Shown here: positions 8,076-30,899 of the stretch, piece after piece
Layout: each line of letters starts with the position of its first letter
How positions within the stretch are numbered: the stretch's first letter is position 1
DNA from: an uncultured Lachnospiraceae bacterium
GTDB lineage: Bacteria; Bacillota; Clostridia; Lachnospirales; Lachnospiraceae
Direction: 5' to 3'
Length of the DNA: 64,000 nt
NCBI GenBank assembly: GCA_946566685.1
Contig: CAMNXA010000016.1
Location: 1 to 64,000, forward strand
Position numbers and translations under genes: made by a program
The notes under the pieces: generated by a model
The model's input: the letters and a program-made list of their open reading frames with translations, nothing else
Told to the model about the DNA's origin: nothing
Databases searched by the model: none

Positions 8076-8525
8076 GTGACAGGAGTGGATATTAAGGTAA
8101 ATCAGGTACAGCAGGCGCCGCAGGTGGAACAGACGCAGCAGGTGCAGGAGACGGACGGCACATTCAAGTTCACTCTCGTCAGCAGAATTGAGGAGCAGGA
8201 CTTACAGCAGGCGCTGGCCGGGATGATGGAGGAGATTACCAGACAGGGTGATAAACTTGCCAAGCACCGGGATATCAAGGATATGAAGCGCTATCGGGCG
8301 CTGATCAAGGATTTTTTGAATGAGGTAGTCAATCGTTCCCATGCTTTTTCCAGAGAAAATTTCCTGGACAGACGGGGACGGCACAGAGTCTATGGGATCA
8401 TCCGGTTGATCGATCAGAATCTGGATCAGCTGGCACAGGAACTTGTGAAAGATGAGCAGGATCATCTGGCGATTCTTGACAAGATCGGAGAAATACGGGG
8501 GCTGTTGTTGGATATCTTTACTTAA
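8076..8525 (+). CDS. YaaR family protein
   Basis: 149 aa, [19 protein letters not shown]; located before holB as in other Firmicutes. Confidence 0.8.
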
Positions 8526-22179: not shown

Positions 22180-23124
22180 TTATAATTGTTCGAGTACTTT
22201 CCAAATATCTGCATTGATACAGATGGAGCACTCTCTGATTTCCGTTGGTGCGCAGGATTCCCCATAATTGACACAAGCATAGGTGGCCTTTGGATTCCCC
22301 GCCGTCATCTGCCAGAACGGATATTTGATGATACCTGGGGTGTTGCCGCCAACCCCCAGTTCCAGATAAAGGACATGGAGATTTTCGTGCCTGTGTAGAA
22401 AATCGGCATAGGCGGCCGAAGCTTTGTGCCATCCTTCATCTTCCACGAAGGAATTGTCTGCGCGCAGATTGGTTGTCATATCGCTGCCATCATCCGGGCA
22501 TTTGGGAATCATATCCGTTGGTATCCTCATGGAAAGCTGTTTGCTTTTTGGCACCTGGAATACACCGTCAGAGTCTTTCACAAATCCTTGCGCTTCCATG
22601 GCTTTTATTATCCATGCTTCATTATCATAGGTCTTTCGGATAGATGGATTTACACTTTGGAACAGGCCATAATCACCCTGGGTATAAAACAGCCTCTTTT
22701 TGTCAAAACCTGCTCTTTGGAACTGATGATCCACATTGGTGGTGATGACAAAATAGTCTTTGTCTTTTACAAGTTCCAACAGTTTCGTATATACGGGATT
22801 GGGGGCATCAATGTATCTGTTGTAATAAATATGCCTTGCCCACCAGGCCCAGTAAGTTTCTGCATTGGGAAAGGGATAGAAGCCGCCGGAATACATATCT
22901 CTGATACCATATTTTATGGCAAAGTCAAAGAAATACCGTTCAAATCGTTCTCCGCTGTAAGTAAAGCCGGCAGATGTGGATAATCCGGCGCCAGCGCCGA
23001 TGATAATGGCGTCTGCTGTTTCCATTTCCCTTTTCAGTCTGATAGTCTCTTCCTGTCCATTTGACAGTTGAGTCAAACGTTCATTGTTATTTTGATGGAT
23101 ATTCTTATTTCCAAACATAGTCAT
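22180..23124 (-). CDS. SIR2/sirtuin-family protein, SirTM-like, incomplete Zn-binding cysteines
   Basis: IIGAGAGLSTSAGFTYSGERF, ITTNVDHQFQRAGF; PKCPDDGSDMTTNLRADNSFVEDEGWH. Confidence 0.75.
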   Translation of the reverse strand: MTMFGNKNIHQNNNERLTQLSNGQEETIRLKREMETADAIIIGAGAGLSTSAGFTYSGERFERYFFDFAIKYGIRDMYSGGFYPFPNAETYWAWWARHIYYNRYIDAPNPVYTKLLELVKDKDYFVITTNVDHQFQRAGFDKKRLFYTQGDYGLFQSVNPSIRKTYDNEAWIIKAMEAQGFVKDSDGVFQVPKSKQLSMRIPTDMIPKCPDDGSDMTTNLRADNSFVEDEGWHKASAAYADFLHRHENLHVLYLELGVGGNTPGIIKYPFWQMTAGNPKATYACVNYGESCAPTEIRECSICINADIWKVLEQL

Positions 23125-23161: not shown

Positions 23162-23725
23162 TCAGATATAAATCACATCAGCATAATGGCGTTTCGGATG
23201 TTTGGGATATTCCCCGTCACAATACCCCATTGTGACAAATACCTGCGGGGCAAATTCTTCCGGGATACCCATTTTATCCTGATATTGTTTCCCTTTCTCT
23301 GTGGCGAGACAGTTCAGGACTTCTCCAACGATACAGGTCGATACGTTCTGTTCATATGCGGCAAGAGTCATATTCTGTGCCAGTATATATGCATCCGGGG
23401 AAGAAAAATAGAAATTCTTCGGGCCAAACAAAGCTGCGACTACCGGCGCATTATGGAAGGCGTTTTCTGATGCAGCGATATCTTCTTCGGATGGAAGCGC
23501 CGTAATCCCTTTGTTAAAGTTCTGGATGATCCGCATATGGGCTTTGCCGATGTAATCAATTATTGTACGGTCAGTTATCACTACAATTTTTGTGGAATTA
23601 CGGTTTCCCGCATTTGGGCTGTAGTCTGTCACGGCAAGTATCTTATCTATTGTTTCTTTGGAAGGCGGAGAGTCTGTGAATTTCCTCACGGAGCGTCTCC
23701 CCCTGATGGCTTCCATTAATTCCAT
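23162..23725 (-). CDS. Nitroreductase family protein
   Basis: AIRGRRSVRKFTDSPPSKETI, SPNAGNRNSTKIVVI. Confidence 0.88.
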   Translation of the reverse strand: MELMEAIRGRRSVRKFTDSPPSKETIDKILAVTDYSPNAGNRNSTKIVVITDRTIIDYIGKAHMRIIQNFNKGITALPSEEDIAASENAFHNAPVVAALFGPKNFYFSSPDAYILAQNMTLAAYEQNVSTCIVGEVLNCLATEKGKQYQDKMGIPEEFAPQVFVTMGYCDGEYPKHPKRHYADVIYI

Positions 23726-23752: not shown

Positions 23753-24460
23753 TTATAATTGTTCGATTGCCTGTACCGGACAATTTTCAAAACAGTTTCC
23801 GCAGTGCAGGCAGTTGTTCTGCCGTATGGCGTAGGGTTTGCCCTTATCGATAGCTTCCTGCGGGCAGACTCTGACGCATTTCCCGCATCCAATACAGGCA
23901 TCTGTAATCCTGTATCCTTTTGGTTTCATAACCGCATTGCCCACAGCAAAATATTCCCTTGTGATGGGTCTGGTGGACAGGCAGAAATATTCTATCGTAT
24001 AGTCTTTGATCACAAATATGGTGTCAATATTTTTGGTTTCTCCCGGATAGACATTCTCAAGGTAGGGCTGCTCCCGGTAGAGAATATCCCGCCATTTGAT
24101 CTGTTCATCTTCTGGTACCTCCACAGCCCTCCCGGATACACGGATTGTTTCTTTATATCTGGTGTAAGCGGCTATCTGCACTCTGCCATCCGCATAGAGC
24201 TGTCTTGCAAACGGCTTGCCACGTGCTGTCAGGAAGTAGATGTCTGTACCTTCGTAATGTATCGCGCTGATATTCCGGATCTGCGGGGCGCCGTCTTCAT
24301 CAACCGTGGCAAAATTCAGCACACCGACATATCCCAGTTTCTCTATACAAGTTTTAACATCCATCTCATGATTCTCCTTTTCATGATTTCCCTTATTCTG
24401 TGACCTGGGGTTTGATAAGCCAGCTTTCTTCCGTTGCCCAGCACTGGGGATCTTCCGCAT
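23753..24460 (-). CDS. Pyridoxamine 5'-phosphate oxidase-like domain fused to 2[4Fe-4S] ferredoxin
   Basis: FMN-binding split-barrel N-terminus (LGYVGVLNFATVDEDGAPQIRNI) and two CxxCxxCxxxCP clusters (CIGCGKCVRVCP, CLHCGNCFENCP). Confidence 0.87.
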   Translation of the reverse strand: MRKIPSAGQRKKAGLSNPRSQNKGNHEKENHEMDVKTCIEKLGYVGVLNFATVDEDGAPQIRNISAIHYEGTDIYFLTARGKPFARQLYADGRVQIAAYTRYKETIRVSGRAVEVPEDEQIKWRDILYREQPYLENVYPGETKNIDTIFVIKDYTIEYFCLSTRPITREYFAVGNAVMKPKGYRITDACIGCGKCVRVCPQEAIDKGKPYAIRQNNCLHCGNCFENCPVQAIEQL

Positions 24461-25457
24461 AGAAATCTCCGCAGGTTCCCTTGGCTACGGCAGGACAGCC
24501 TCTGCACCATGCCAAAAGTTTACATCTGGCACATTTGCTGAATTTTTCGTAGGCACGGTATTGTTCCATGCTGGTAATCCATACATCTGCGATACGATCC
24601 TCAAAGACATTTCCAACCTTGCTTTCCGCAACTCGGCGGCAGGCATAGATTTCACCGGAAGGAAGGATAGTCAGATGACAGTTGCCACAGTTGCAGCCCC
24701 CATAAATCATTCCGGCTTTTGCATCTTCCGGAATCCGGAACTCCCCGGTTTCGTATTCGTACAGTGTCCACAGGTGATCCTTTTTGTTAAAATATGTCGG
24801 ACAGCCATTTGCCTCATATTCCTTAAATTTCTTATCGCATACAGCAAGTAGTTCCCTGTATTCGGCGGCTGTCATACTGGCATCCAGATTGCCGCCGCTT
24901 GGCACATATCGGGAAAAAGCAAAAACGTTTGCCCCTGCCGCCACTACCGCATCGATGATTCCCGGAACTTCCATACGATTTGTCTTGGAAACGGTGGTCA
25001 TAATGACACTGCGGATGCCGGCCTGGTTGATGCATGCGATTTTTTCAAGCGTGCAGTCATAGGAGCCAGGCATTCTGAACCAATCATGGGTCTGGCGAAG
25101 CCCGTCCAAAGAAAGCTGATATTTCTCACAGCCGTACCATTTCAAGTCCTGGCATATCTGGTCATTTAGATGAAACGGATTTCCGAGGATTGTAAATTTG
25201 ATGCCGTGTTCATGCAGGAGTTTCAAAAGTTTCCAGAAATCCGGATGCAGGATGGGATCGCCGCCGGTAATATAAAAATAGGGGGTTCGACCATACACCT
25301 TACAAAAATCCAGGCAATTATAAAAGGTATCTTCCATCTGTTTCCAGGTCATGGATTGCAGACAGGTATGGTTTCCTGCCGAATAGATGTAGCAATGCTT
25401 ACACCTCTGGTCGCATTCATCTGTGATATGCCATTGAAATGAAAAATAGGGCTTCAT
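24393..25457 (-). CDS. Radical SAM/SPASM peptide-maturase-like protein
   Basis: CDQRCKHC (CxxxCxxC), C-terminal SPASM cysteines CNCGNC...CARCKLLAWCRGCPAVAKGTC...C; next to ACG-repeat peptide. Confidence 0.88.
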   Translation of the reverse strand: MKPYFSFQWHITDECDQRCKHCYIYSAGNHTCLQSMTWKQMEDTFYNCLDFCKVYGRTPYFYITGGDPILHPDFWKLLKLLHEHGIKFTILGNPFHLNDQICQDLKWYGCEKYQLSLDGLRQTHDWFRMPGSYDCTLEKIACINQAGIRSVIMTTVSKTNRMEVPGIIDAVVAAGANVFAFSRYVPSGGNLDASMTAAEYRELLAVCDKKFKEYEANGCPTYFNKKDHLWTLYEYETGEFRIPEDAKAGMIYGGCNCGNCHLTILPSGEIYACRRVAESKVGNVFEDRIADVWITSMEQYRAYEKFSKCARCKLLAWCRGCPAVAKGTCGDFYAEDPQCWATEESWLIKPQVTE

Positions 25458-25519: not shown

Positions 25520-25552
25520 GAGTCCCCCGAATAACAGACCGCCGGGGGACTC
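25520..25552 (-). promoter_or_regulatory. Intercistronic stem-loop between peptide gene and radical SAM gene
   Basis: Perfect 10-bp stem GAGTCCCCCG / CGGGGGACTC, no U-tract on minus strand. Confidence 0.75.
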
Positions 25553-25563
25553 ATATTAACTTC

Positions 25564-25788
25564 CTATTTGTCACCAGCGCCGCAGGCAGAACCGCAAGCC
25601 GCAGGTTTTTCGTCCGGTTTGTCACCAGCGCCGCAGGCAGAACCGCAAGCCGCGGGTTTTTCTTCCGGTTTGTCGCCAGCGCCGCAGGCAGAGCCGCAAG
25701 CCGCGGGTTTTTCTTCCGGTTTGTCACTTGCACCGCAAGCGCTTCCCGCCATATTTTCGTTCCAACCAGCTATGTTTGATAATGCCAT
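25564..25788 (-). CDS. ACG-repeat Cys-rich peptide, putative RiPP precursor
   Basis: MALSNIAGWNENMAGSACGASDKPEEKPAACG(SACGAGDKPxEKPAACG)2SACGAGDK; RBS GGAGG upstream; adjacent radical SAM/SPASM gene. Confidence 0.88.
   Translation of the reverse strand: MALSNIAGWNENMAGSACGASDKPEEKPAACGSACGAGDKPEEKPAACGSACGAGDKPDEKPAACGSACGAGDK
25568..25745. repeat. Three full 51-bp tandem repeats plus a partial fourth inside the peptide gene
   Basis: Units at 25568-25618, 25619-25669, 25670-25720, partial from 25721; near-identical on inspection. Confidence 0.92.
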
Positions 25789-26057: not shown

Positions 26058-26405
26058 ATGGAAGGAAGGTTAATACATATGAGAAAGAAAGCAGACTTAC
26101 CAGAATGCCCCGTAGCGACCACCGTCAGTATGATTGGGAATAAATGGAAACTTCTCATCATACGCAACCTTATATCCCGGTCGTGGCGATTCAATGAGCT
26201 CCAGCGGGATCTGGAGGGTATCAGCCAGAAAGTCCTGACGGACAGTCTGCGCTCGATGGAGGCAGACGGAATTATCACAAGGACTGTCTATGCAGAGGTT
26301 CCGCCCAGAGTGGAATATGCCCTGAGTGAACTTGGAGCATCCCTGTGTCCTGTTATGGATGAGATGAAAAAATGGGGGCTTATGTACAAAAATCGTGCAG
26401 AATAA
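26058..26405 (+). CDS. HxlR family transcriptional regulator
   Basis: CPVATTVSMIGNKWKLLIIRNLI...RFNELQRDLEGISQKVLTDSLRSMEADGII. Confidence 0.93.
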   Translation: MEGRLIHMRKKADLPECPVATTVSMIGNKWKLLIIRNLISRSWRFNELQRDLEGISQKVLTDSLRSMEADGIITRTVYAEVPPRVEYALSELGASLCPVMDEMKKWGLMYKNRAE

Positions 26406-27675: not shown

Positions 27676-27729
27676 CGAGATTCGCCTGAGGCGAATCTCG
27701 AGGAGATAATCCCGCAGGGATTTTCTCCT
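27676..27729. terminator. Tandem hairpins between convergent genes
   Basis: CGAGATTCGCC-tga-GGCGAATCTCG then AGGAGA..ATCCC-gca-GGGAT..TCTCCT. Confidence 0.65.
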
Positions 27730-30217
27730 ATTCATTGCTTCGGATTCGCTCGATTAAACTCTCTTTTTCCACCTTTTTATTGATAAAAAGTGTGATCGCA
27801 GCCTGGCCTCCCAGTAATGCCAGCGCAAGGATTACGGTCTCCCAGATTGGGAAATGATAACCGGTCAAACTCATAAAGTGCATCTTTTTGGCATAGAGGA
27901 AGAACAGATATCCAGACAGGTGTCCAAGCGTTGCACTGATCAGGAGTGTACCGGCGGTGAACACCATGCCTTCTGCGGAGAGCATATGGACAAGCTGTCT
28001 GTTAGAAAGGCCCAGTGCCTGTAGTATCCCCAGTTCCCTCCTGCGAGTGATGATACTGGTGATCATCGTATTGATCAGATTCATGAAACTGATCACGGCG
28101 ATCAGGACAAGGATCAGGTATACCGGATATTTGGTCAGGCTTAGGCCGAAGCGTCCAATGGCCATTTCCTCATCCAGGGAATAGAGATTAAAATGCTCAT
28201 TCTCAGCTACAATATCCTGAAGGGCCTTTTTCACATCATCATACTGTGCCTCTTTCACATGTACATAGATGTCCGTGGTCGGGTCATAGGTCAGCCCCAG
28301 ATTGTCCCAGCTGTCCTTTGTCATGATAAGGAGAACAGTGAAACTTTCCGGCTGGGACAATGCGGTCAGGGTGACGGTAAGAGGAATTTCCCGGTCACCG
28401 TCATGGAGTGTCAGCGGGAAAACATCGCCCAGGGCAAGCCCATACGCGTCAAAGGAGTATTTGTGGGTGTAGATGATCTCGTTGTTGGCGGTCATGCGGT
28501 CATAGTCGATATCACCGGATACAAGCTGTTCGTTCAGTTCGGGAAGGTCTTCTCTGGTAAAACAGGAGATTGCCACCCGGTTATTATTGTTTTCGAAGAG
28601 AGCGGATTCCATATTTGAGGAAGATAGAATTTCTCCGGGGGCGCGTGTCACGGACTCCACGCCTTCTATGGAGGACAGCTGTGCCAGAAATTCTTCACTG
28701 AAGTAGTTCTGCTGTACAAGGGAATCCAGATTGTTTTCCGGATATTCTTTATCGTTATGTGCATAATTCAGGGAAATGCGAAACTCCCCTTCCTGTATAT
28801 TACGCCTCGCAAGATCTTCTACACGGCAGCTGTTCATGACGGCCGCTACACAGATAAAGAGCACACTGCTTAAGCCCATGGTGAGCATGGTGACGATGGT
28901 ACGTCTCTTGTTACGCGCAAGGTTAGCCCAGGTCAAAGTGGAGACCTTCACCGTAAGATGCCCTCTGCGGCTTTTACAGTCGGTGGTGTTTTCCTGATAA
29001 CGAATGGCTTCCACAGGCGATACCTTTTTGGCCATGCGGATAGGTTTCAGCAAAGATACCCATACGGTGATAAGCACCGAGATGATCACTACCAACAGGA
29101 ATGGCAGGGAGAACATATGCAGCTGGTTTCTAAGGCCTTTCAAATGCTCCATGCGGGCGGAGTCCAGTGCACTGGCATTGAGGATCCGTATGACCTGGGG
29201 GAACAGGAACCAGGGAACGAAATAACCAATCAACACGCCCAGGGGAATAGCGAATGCGCAGACGATACCGCCCTGACAGAACAACAGTCTGGCAATCTGA
29301 CGCCTGGAAGCGCCGAGGGCTTTCAGCTTGCCGATTTCCTGAATATCCGTAATGACGCCTACGTAATAGATACTGTAGATGACCAGTGCGGAGAAGAGGA
29401 TTACCACCAGACTGATGACAGCTACGATGCTGATGGCGTCCGTGTCAGGAGAAGTCATGGTATACAGGTATTGATTATTGCATGAGACATGTTCCTCATC
29501 CAGTCCGATATCTGCGGCCGTGCTGATGATTTTGGCCTCTATCTCATCATAGGAAAGCGTATCTTCTCCGTAGACACGCAGGTAAGCAGAAGGAATGGAT
29601 TCATAAAGTCCGGCTTCCTCGTATTGCGTAAGAAGGGCTTTGGAGACATAGGCACCCCAGACAATGCGGCTGTCAGAAATATCAGCGGATATTTCCACAT
29701 CGGTGAGCAGACCGCTGATGGTAAACTCTTTGGTCTGGACTTCTCCCTTGCCGCCTGCACGGAAAGAAAGAGTGACCTTGCCGCCCACAATGGGCTCTGC
29801 GCCCACGCGTTTAAGAAAAGACGGTACAGAGCAGATTTCATCTTCTTTTTCCGGGAAATGTCCCTCTGTGAGTTCTAAGTTACTAAAATAGATACCGTCC
29901 TTGACTGTATCATAATATCTCAGATAACCATTCATTTTGCCATTTATGATCTGGGCAAAATTTTCCATGGATGCTAAAGATTCCACGTTAATATGTTTTG
30001 ACAGGATGGAGAGCTGTTCGGGCTCTGTGAGTCCCAAAGCTGCGTGATAATTGGTCTGTGCCACCGCAAGCTGCCTGTTCATATCAAGCATGGCAAGTGC
30101 GCTGGTGCCGATGGCCATTAACAGCATGGTGGTAAGCATGATGGCAATACCGGTCAGCAGGGTACGGCTTTTATGATAACGGAGTTTGCTGAAAGCAAGG
30201 CGAAAAACCATCTTCAT
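27728..30217 (-). CDS. ABC transporter permease (FtsX-like)
   Basis: 829 aa; two FtsX-type domains (EIGKLKALGASRRQI, ELGILQALGLSNRQL). Confidence 0.92.
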   Translation of the reverse strand: MKMVFRLAFSKLRYHKSRTLLTGIAIMLTTMLLMAIGTSALAMLDMNRQLAVAQTNYHAALGLTEPEQLSILSKHINVESLASMENFAQIINGKMNGYLRYYDTVKDGIYFSNLELTEGHFPEKEDEICSVPSFLKRVGAEPIVGGKVTLSFRAGGKGEVQTKEFTISGLLTDVEISADISDSRIVWGAYVSKALLTQYEEAGLYESIPSAYLRVYGEDTLSYDEIEAKIISTAADIGLDEEHVSCNNQYLYTMTSPDTDAISIVAVISLVVILFSALVIYSIYYVGVITDIQEIGKLKALGASRRQIARLLFCQGGIVCAFAIPLGVLIGYFVPWFLFPQVIRILNASALDSARMEHLKGLRNQLHMFSLPFLLVVIISVLITVWVSLLKPIRMAKKVSPVEAIRYQENTTDCKSRRGHLTVKVSTLTWANLARNKRRTIVTMLTMGLSSVLFICVAAVMNSCRVEDLARRNIQEGEFRISLNYAHNDKEYPENNLDSLVQQNYFSEEFLAQLSSIEGVESVTRAPGEILSSSNMESALFENNNNRVAISCFTREDLPELNEQLVSGDIDYDRMTANNEIIYTHKYSFDAYGLALGDVFPLTLHDGDREIPLTVTLTALSQPESFTVLLIMTKDSWDNLGLTYDPTTDIYVHVKEAQYDDVKKALQDIVAENEHFNLYSLDEEMAIGRFGLSLTKYPVYLILVLIAVISFMNLINTMITSIITRRRELGILQALGLSNRQLVHMLSAEGMVFTAGTLLISATLGHLSGYLFFLYAKKMHFMSLTGYHFPIWETVILALALLGGQAAITLFINKKVEKESLIERIRSNE

Positions 30218-30218
30218 A

Positions 30219-30899
30219 TCAGCCCACCACCTTTCCGTCTGCGATCATGACGGTACGGTCAGCCATCTGTGCGATTTCCTCATTATGTGTGATGACAACC
30301 AGAGTCTGACCGTATTTCTTGGCAGAAGTTTTTAAGAGAGCCATCACCTCGTCTCCGGTCTTGGTGTCCAGGTTGCCGGTAGGCTCATCGGCCAGTATGA
30401 TAGAAGGCTTGGCGGCAATTGCCCGTGCAATGGCACAGCGCTGCTGCTGGCCCCCGGAGAGGGTGTTGGGGAGATTCTTTACCTTACTTTCCAGTCCCAG
30501 CGTCTTGACGATGTCCCGGATAAAAGGCTCATCAAGTTCCTTGTTATCCAGTCCCAGCGGGAGTACGATGTTTTCCCATACATTTAAAGAGGGAATCAGG
30601 TTGTAGGATTGAAAGATAAAACCGATTTTCCGGCGGCGGATCTGGGAGAGCCGGTTTTCTTTAAAGGAAGATATATTCTCGTCATCCAGCCAGACACTAC
30701 CGGAGGTGGGATTGTCAAGTGCACCCAGCATATGGAGCAGAGTAGATTTGCCGCTTCCGGATTTACCTACGATAGAGACAAATTCCCCCTGTTTGATTGC
30801 AAGGTCTATACAGTCAACGGCCTTGACCAGATTGTCTCCTGCGCCGTAATATTTGCATAAGCTGTCTGTTCTTAAGATAATGTTAGTGTGTTCGTTCAT
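30219..30899 (-). CDS. ABC transporter ATP-binding protein (LolD/MacB type)
   Basis: [55 protein letters not shown]. Confidence 0.95.

Follow-up and report, generated by a model that had tools for sequence, protein, structure and literature searches.

Module turnover in an ACGX-repeat peptide family whose redox operons have a divergent HxlR gene and are recurrently linked to SirTM

The window (the whole 64,000-nucleotide stretch of uncultured Lachnospiraceae DNA analysed here) contains a short minus-strand gene, acgA (25564..25788), whose product of 74 aa and 7 Cys is, judged by its profile score (TIGR04341, 82.7 bits; cut-off 28), a new member of the catalogued ACGX-repeat family. Our overall reading, which we consider rather probable, is that AcgA is an intracellular redox-stress peptide modified by the radical SAM enzyme AcgM and a candidate substrate of the protein ADP-ribosyltransferase SirTM. 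The gene acgM (24393..25457, minus strand, 354 aa) begins 106 bp downstream of acgA and matches TIGR04340, the model for the ACGX-type radical SAM/SPASM maturase (580.9 bits; cut-off 400). Since both cut-offs are exceeded by far, the precursor gene with repeats noticed in the first-pass annotation is already a known family, and the 51-bp repeat is a defining feature of that family, not a peculiarity of one genome. RefSeq uses the names acgA and acgM in Roseburia sp. 831b, and the window pair has the gene order and orientation of the ACGX system (TIGR04341 + TIGR04340) with no essential difference. The window genome holds a single copy of acgA. The databases assign the ACGX system no function. 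A literature search (ACGX, TIGR04340/41, acgM with radical SAM or SirTM) returned nothing relevant and no experiment on AcgA or AcgM, and the redox and SirTM setting described below was not found in the literature searched.

TRF detected one strong array in the 64-kb window (25560-25727; period 51, 3.3 copies, 93% matches, score 294), and it falls within acgA. The sole other TRF array in the 64 kb had a score of 60. An 18-bp tandem repeat (2.8 copies, 75%) is found at 8103-8153. The minus-strand translation of 25564-25788 is MALSNIAGWNENMAGSACGASDKPEEKPAACGSACGAGDKPEEKPAACGSACGAGDKPDEKPAACGSACGAGDK, followed by the stop codon. In the 17-aa phase used at first pass it contains three full units (SDKPEEKPAACGSACGA, GDKPEEKPAACGSACGA and GDKPDEKPAACGSACGA) and a 3-aa partial; the array originally described, three full 17-aa units plus a partial copy, is thus borne out by TRF and translation in both its coordinates and its unit sequence. 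In the ACGX phase, the sense order is one diverged unit, two near-identical units and a terminal 33-bp partial, all on the minus strand. The diverged unit 0 (MAGSACGASDKPEEKPA; 25702..25752) is 69-71% identical to the next two. Unit 2 (ACGSACGAGDKPDEKPA; 25600..25650) is 92% identical to unit 1 (ACGSACGAGDKPEEKPA; 25651..25701), with four changed codons, three of them synonymous. The terminal partial, ACGSACGAGDK (25567..25599, 33 bp), is 100% identical to unit 2. The window assembly is a draft of 115 contigs, and short-read assembly is able to collapse an array of this size (~168 bp). The earlier caution about short-read assembly was apt: in one congener, acgA is apparently split into two pieces within the array (L144 at the end of G003:C56, L128 at the start of G003:C16), probably an assembly break.

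The repeats in the window are recently duplicated or homogenised beyond codon bias, which is not universal across the family. Codon identity of repeated 8-aa stretches is 0.879 within the window gene vs 0.449 between genes. Synonymous-codon shuffles inside the gene averaged 0.529 and none of 500 reached the observed value, which upholds the recent expansion first proposed from the near-identity of the copies. Over the wider set, within-gene identity had a mean of 0.593 (66 genes) vs 0.428 between genes, and the shuffle test over 67 genes gave means of 0.598 observed and 0.466 shuffled. In 22 of these genes the excess was strong, with no more than 5 of 500 shuffles matching it, and in others it was weak. 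Repeat slippage is very likely the source of the 51-bp repeats. In-frame slippage or unequal recombination would gain or lose whole modules, while the MALSNIAGW and ACGSACGAGDK ends would be retained.

A scan of GTDB genomes with AcgM returned 467 relatives, and the best 80 of the 467 loci were kept; the collections hold one genome per species. The 80 acgA genes compared come from these GTDB loci, the window and plasmids, and were picked out by the N-terminal pattern MALxx[IL]xxW. The number of units changes between species: AcgA proteins contain 3 to 13 Cys over the 80 loci, not the constant number with normal divergence that the first-pass annotation had set as counter-evidence. The Cys number agreed in 8/8 locus pairs with acgM divergence below 5%, all drawn from just three sets of near relatives. 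At 5-10% divergence 44% of pairs agreed, and beyond 20% the share was 18%. Because all eight closest pairs agree, there is no obvious hypervariability of the array, and the suggested variation between strains, though possible, is unproven.

Between the two termini, the 80 genes differ in unit number and contain several unit lengths. The conserved N-terminal segment, MALSNIAGW in the window (25762..25788, minus strand), is presumed to be the recognition or leader part. Trp9 is present in 80/80 genes, partly by selection since the extraction pattern demands Trp, and the raw list agrees. The C-terminus is exactly ACGSACGAGDK in 39/80. Almost every Cys is followed by Gly (491/494), and the fourth position after Cys is Asp in 278, Glu in 48 and Cys in 156 of the 494 cases, together 97.6%; units of one array are not independent in this count, yet species differ in whether Asp, Glu or Cys is found there. 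The ACG-x-x-[DE] core and both termini persist through unit turnover. Each ACGX unit may represent one modification module, formed by a Cys and an acidic residue (or second Cys) four positions on. The "modified Cys sites" of the first-pass annotation are inferred from the maturase together with this conserved C-x3-[D/E/C] pattern.

The best surviving alternative, a real possibility if the lesser one, is that repeat number is neutral slippage noise without functional consequence. Unit number, unit type and linker do vary freely at modest divergence. However, the ACG-x-x-[DE] core and both ends are kept and the rule at Cys+4 holds, which speaks against noise in the units themselves; the number as such could still be neutral.

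The archaeal plasmid pNP174 of Methanosphaera sp. ISO3-F5 encodes (L147, 5140-8024) an HxlR protein, an acgA-like peptide, acgM as two ORFs and a quinone reductase, with BREX genes adjoining. The plasmid peptide has ACGxE repeats, with Glu at Cys+3, and is not recognised by the TIGR04341 model. Two distinct acgA-acgM loci were found within one MAG in two cases (L031/L037 and L039/L048), so some genomes possess paralogous ACGX systems. A scan of viral contigs with AcgM gave no match, hence no sign of phage carriage.

AcgM very probably acts on AcgA. In 79/80 GTDB loci acgA is located just upstream of acgM, the exception (L059) being a contig with 77 bases upstream. The AcgM CxxxCxxC motif (C15, C19, C22) and C255/C257/C260/C273 are kept in 79/79 relatives, and C309/C312/C318/C321/C339 in every relative long enough to cover them; the protein has nine conserved C-terminal Cys, as in SPASM enzymes. 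AcgA would be the intracellular peptide substrate of this radical SAM/SPASM enzyme.

The chemistry is suggested by analogy. PapB joins Cys to Asp/Glu as thioethers at CX3D/E sites (PMC9413430), and this spacing is found at 326/494 Cys of AcgA. Like the freyrasin pair PapA/PapB, the ACGX system combines many Cys-x3-Asp/Glu modules per short peptide with a SPASM maturase of similar length that has no visible RRE extension. In contrast to that pair, AcgA has extra Cys-x3-Cys modules and shows no sign of secretion, and AcgM reaches just 61.6 bits with the PapB model (NF047865), far below its cut-off of 340, so the chemistry may differ. For the same reason a Cys thioether made by AcgM at C-x3-D/E of AcgA, probably one per module if PapB is a guide, is a specific prediction of modest probability, which we rate as plausible and somewhat short of probable. 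It would also consume the thiol and thus fits poorly with a plain thiol buffer. The second-best NCBIfam match of AcgM is SbtM, the thio(seleno)oxazole modification radical SAM maturase (TIGR04082), with 162 bits, far short of the cut-off of 350. Among solved maturases, SkfB, CteB-type and SuiB are some of the nearest to AcgM in sequence. These sactipeptide/RiPP maturases have an RRE before the radical SAM domain, whereas AcgM lacks an N-terminal RRE: its radical SAM domain starts at residue 9 and aligns to residues 101-137 of SkfB/CteB/SuiB. A Foldseek search with the AlphaFold2 model of AcgM (pLDDT 64, pTM 0.66) returned the radical SAM enzymes BlsE, SkfB, SuiB and anSMEcpe, and the top matches all had a query-normalised TM below 0.5, too weak for the structure to pick a chemistry.

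The gap between acgA and acgM contains a 10-bp perfect stem-loop (25520..25552, minus strand) with no T run after it. Stems of at least 7 perfect pairs are found in this gap in 71% of 77 loci, vs 7% of mononucleotide shuffles, and a T-rich stretch follows the stem in just 8/55 loci. The stem-loop may act by stabilising the acgA transcript or by partial termination, and in this way set the acgA:acgM ratio in favour of peptide over enzyme.

Redox genes recur in the genomic neighbourhood, and a stress role of the AcgA operon is likely. A divergent HxlR-family regulator (26058..26405, plus strand; PF01638, 107.5 bits) adjoins acgA in the window, and a divergent HxlR gene recurs at 67 of the 69 loci whose DNA extends far enough upstream. 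Its N-terminal Cys is invariant in 71/71 relatives. In DUF24/HxlR-type regulators the N-terminal Cys is a sensor of quinones, diamide, HOCl or aldehydes (PMC6943732, PMC7835342). The Cys-sensing HxlR would turn the operon on under thiol, electrophile or oxidative stress. On the minus strand of the window, a PNPOx-like flavin split-barrel domain fused to two 4Fe-4S clusters (23753..24460; PF01243 + Fer4) and a nitroreductase-family flavoprotein (23162..23725; PF00881, 92 bits) are encoded. The gene directly after acgM is a redox gene in 67/74 loci, and an oxidoreductase gene lies nearby in every one of the 50 loci that have 5.9 kb or more of downstream DNA. Their types in these 50 loci are MDR-type quinone reductase (QOR; 33), PNPOx-ferredoxin (21), nitroreductase (14) and ferredoxin-nitroreductase (11). 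As a redox buffer or carrier, the finished peptide would act together with these flavin, nitro- or quinone reductases.

The presence of an oxidoreductase at every testable locus would also be expected if AcgA gave rise to a redox cofactor of peptide origin, after the logic of mycofactocin or PQQ, for the adjoining enzymes, with one copy per repeat and repeat number setting dosage. A multi-copy precursor would be expected to consist of identical units in tandem, and the acidic ACGX-xDK unit is conserved where linker length is not. However, the operon has no recurring peptidase gene, there is wide variation in linkers and unit boundaries, and the C-terminus is retained as in a protein that is used whole; we regard the cofactor precursor as unlikely.

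Secretion of AcgA as a ranthipeptide-type antimicrobial or signal is very unlikely. Its C-x3-D/E spacing does resemble PapA, and SkfB, CteB-type and SuiB enzymes are among the solved maturases nearest to AcgM. The common neighbour clusters of acgA loci, however, contained no recurring exporter, protease/peptidase or immunity gene; the absence of a recurring ABC exporter is set against the redox enzymes, HxlR, SirTM and macrodomain genes that do recur. The ATPase-transporter genes of the window (27728-30899) are not conserved with acgA. A secreted bacteriocin was rejected on the same grounds. Equally improbable is a metallothionein-like metal- or cluster-binding Cys protein with AcgM serving another purpose, since the 3-13 Cys, although in a short disordered-looking chain, are at least 3 residues apart with a fixed acidic flank, unlike the CxC/CxxC pattern of metallothioneins, and acgM is always adjacent.

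The preferred reading, that of an AcgM-modified redox-stress peptide, is extended to SirTM by a further gene of the window operon. The minus-strand gene at 22180..23124 is assigned to SirTM (class M sirtuins, a protein ADP-ribosyltransferase family) from PDB matches and catalytic residues. Its only PDB matches are 5a3a (SIR2 family protein, 183.5 bits), which by its aligned catalytic residues appears to be a SirTM structure, and the macrodomain-sirtuin fusion 8rsn. Like class M enzymes, the protein has Gln in place of the catalytic His, plus the Asn and Arg of SpySirTM. The equivalents of N118, Q137 and R192 are kept in the window protein, and in relatives N is found in 62/63, Q in 63/63 and R in 63/63.

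Among the 50 loci, 27 contain SirTM, 26 a Zn-macrodomain-type gene and 28 either of the two; in 22 of the 50, no SirTM gene lies within 7 kb of acgM. The window operon has no Zn-macrodomain gene, and one macrodomain gene is found on another contig of the genome (G000:C50). Across 60 congeners, SirTM is present in 17/18 acgM-bearing genomes vs 18/42 without acgM (Fisher p = 1.5e-4, uncorrected for relatedness), and 16/18 acgM genes of the genus are within 2.2 kb of SirTM. In the sole acgM-bearing congener of the 60 without SirTM, acgM has an internal TAA stop (L141, G071:C53:4633-5694). Conversely, 18/35 SirTM-bearing congeners lack acgM. Neither gene is therefore obligate for the other. On the SirTM tree, the acgM-adjacent loci do not form a single clade: linkage requires 10 changes by parsimony (14.5 in shuffles), at least 5 of which are forced by well-supported branches. 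This makes it a recurrent partnership, not one inherited accident or frozen arrangement, and AcgA a good candidate for a further SirTM target. Among the SirTM genes of the genus without acgA/acgM (L108-L125), several adjoin a PNPOx-ferredoxin, Rrf2-like or NTF2-like, HxlR or nitroreductase gene; a SirTM redox module thus also exists without AcgA. At SirTM loci that lack acgM, a search for alternative small Cys-rich peptides gave nothing convincing, only ferredoxin pieces.

According to PMC11490716, lipoylated GcvH-L is the sole known SirTM target and any further targets are unknown. The GcvH-L/SirTM operon also encodes two flavin oxidoreductases (PMC11490716, PMC4518038). The extended SirTM operon of Staphylococcus and Streptococcus consists of GcvH-L, Zn-Macro, SirTM, LplA2, OYE and LLM. 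It shares with acgA loci the N/Q/R triad, a frequent Zn-macrodomain, flavin oxidoreductases and a small, carrier-like protein paired with a dedicated modifying enzyme; acgA/acgM hold the place of GcvH-L/LplA2, a likeness of layout. The differences are that GcvH-L was not found here, that HxlR is present and that SirTM occurs in just about half of acgA loci. A GCV_H profile search of the 60 congeners gave partial matches of 21-27 bits, mostly in 129-aa proteins resembling biotin carriers and none at SirTM loci, and no convincing GcvH-L. Where SirTM and a macrodomain occur, ADP-ribosylation may toggle AcgA in the stead of the lipoyl-GcvH-L of staphylococci and streptococci. By this analogy, ADP-ribosylation of AcgA by SirTM is possible, if doubtful. 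Slightly more doubtful still is the full proposal that AcgM-modified AcgA would be a second natural SirTM substrate, serving gut Clostridia as an ADP-ribosylation-controlled redox carrier that replaces lipoyl-GcvH-L and has its capacity tuned by repeat number.

The ACGX family itself was known; what the comparison adds is evidence that modules turn over while the termini stay fixed, the C-x3-[D/E/C] rule, and the location of the system in redox operons, presumably under HxlR control, to which SirTM is recurrently linked. The C-x3-[D/E] rule predicts modification sites for mass spectra, and the repeats provide a natural series of module numbers. The linkage of acgA to SirTM offers one testable answer to two questions: what the ACGX family does, and which targets SirTM has beyond the GcvH-L operon (PMC11490716).
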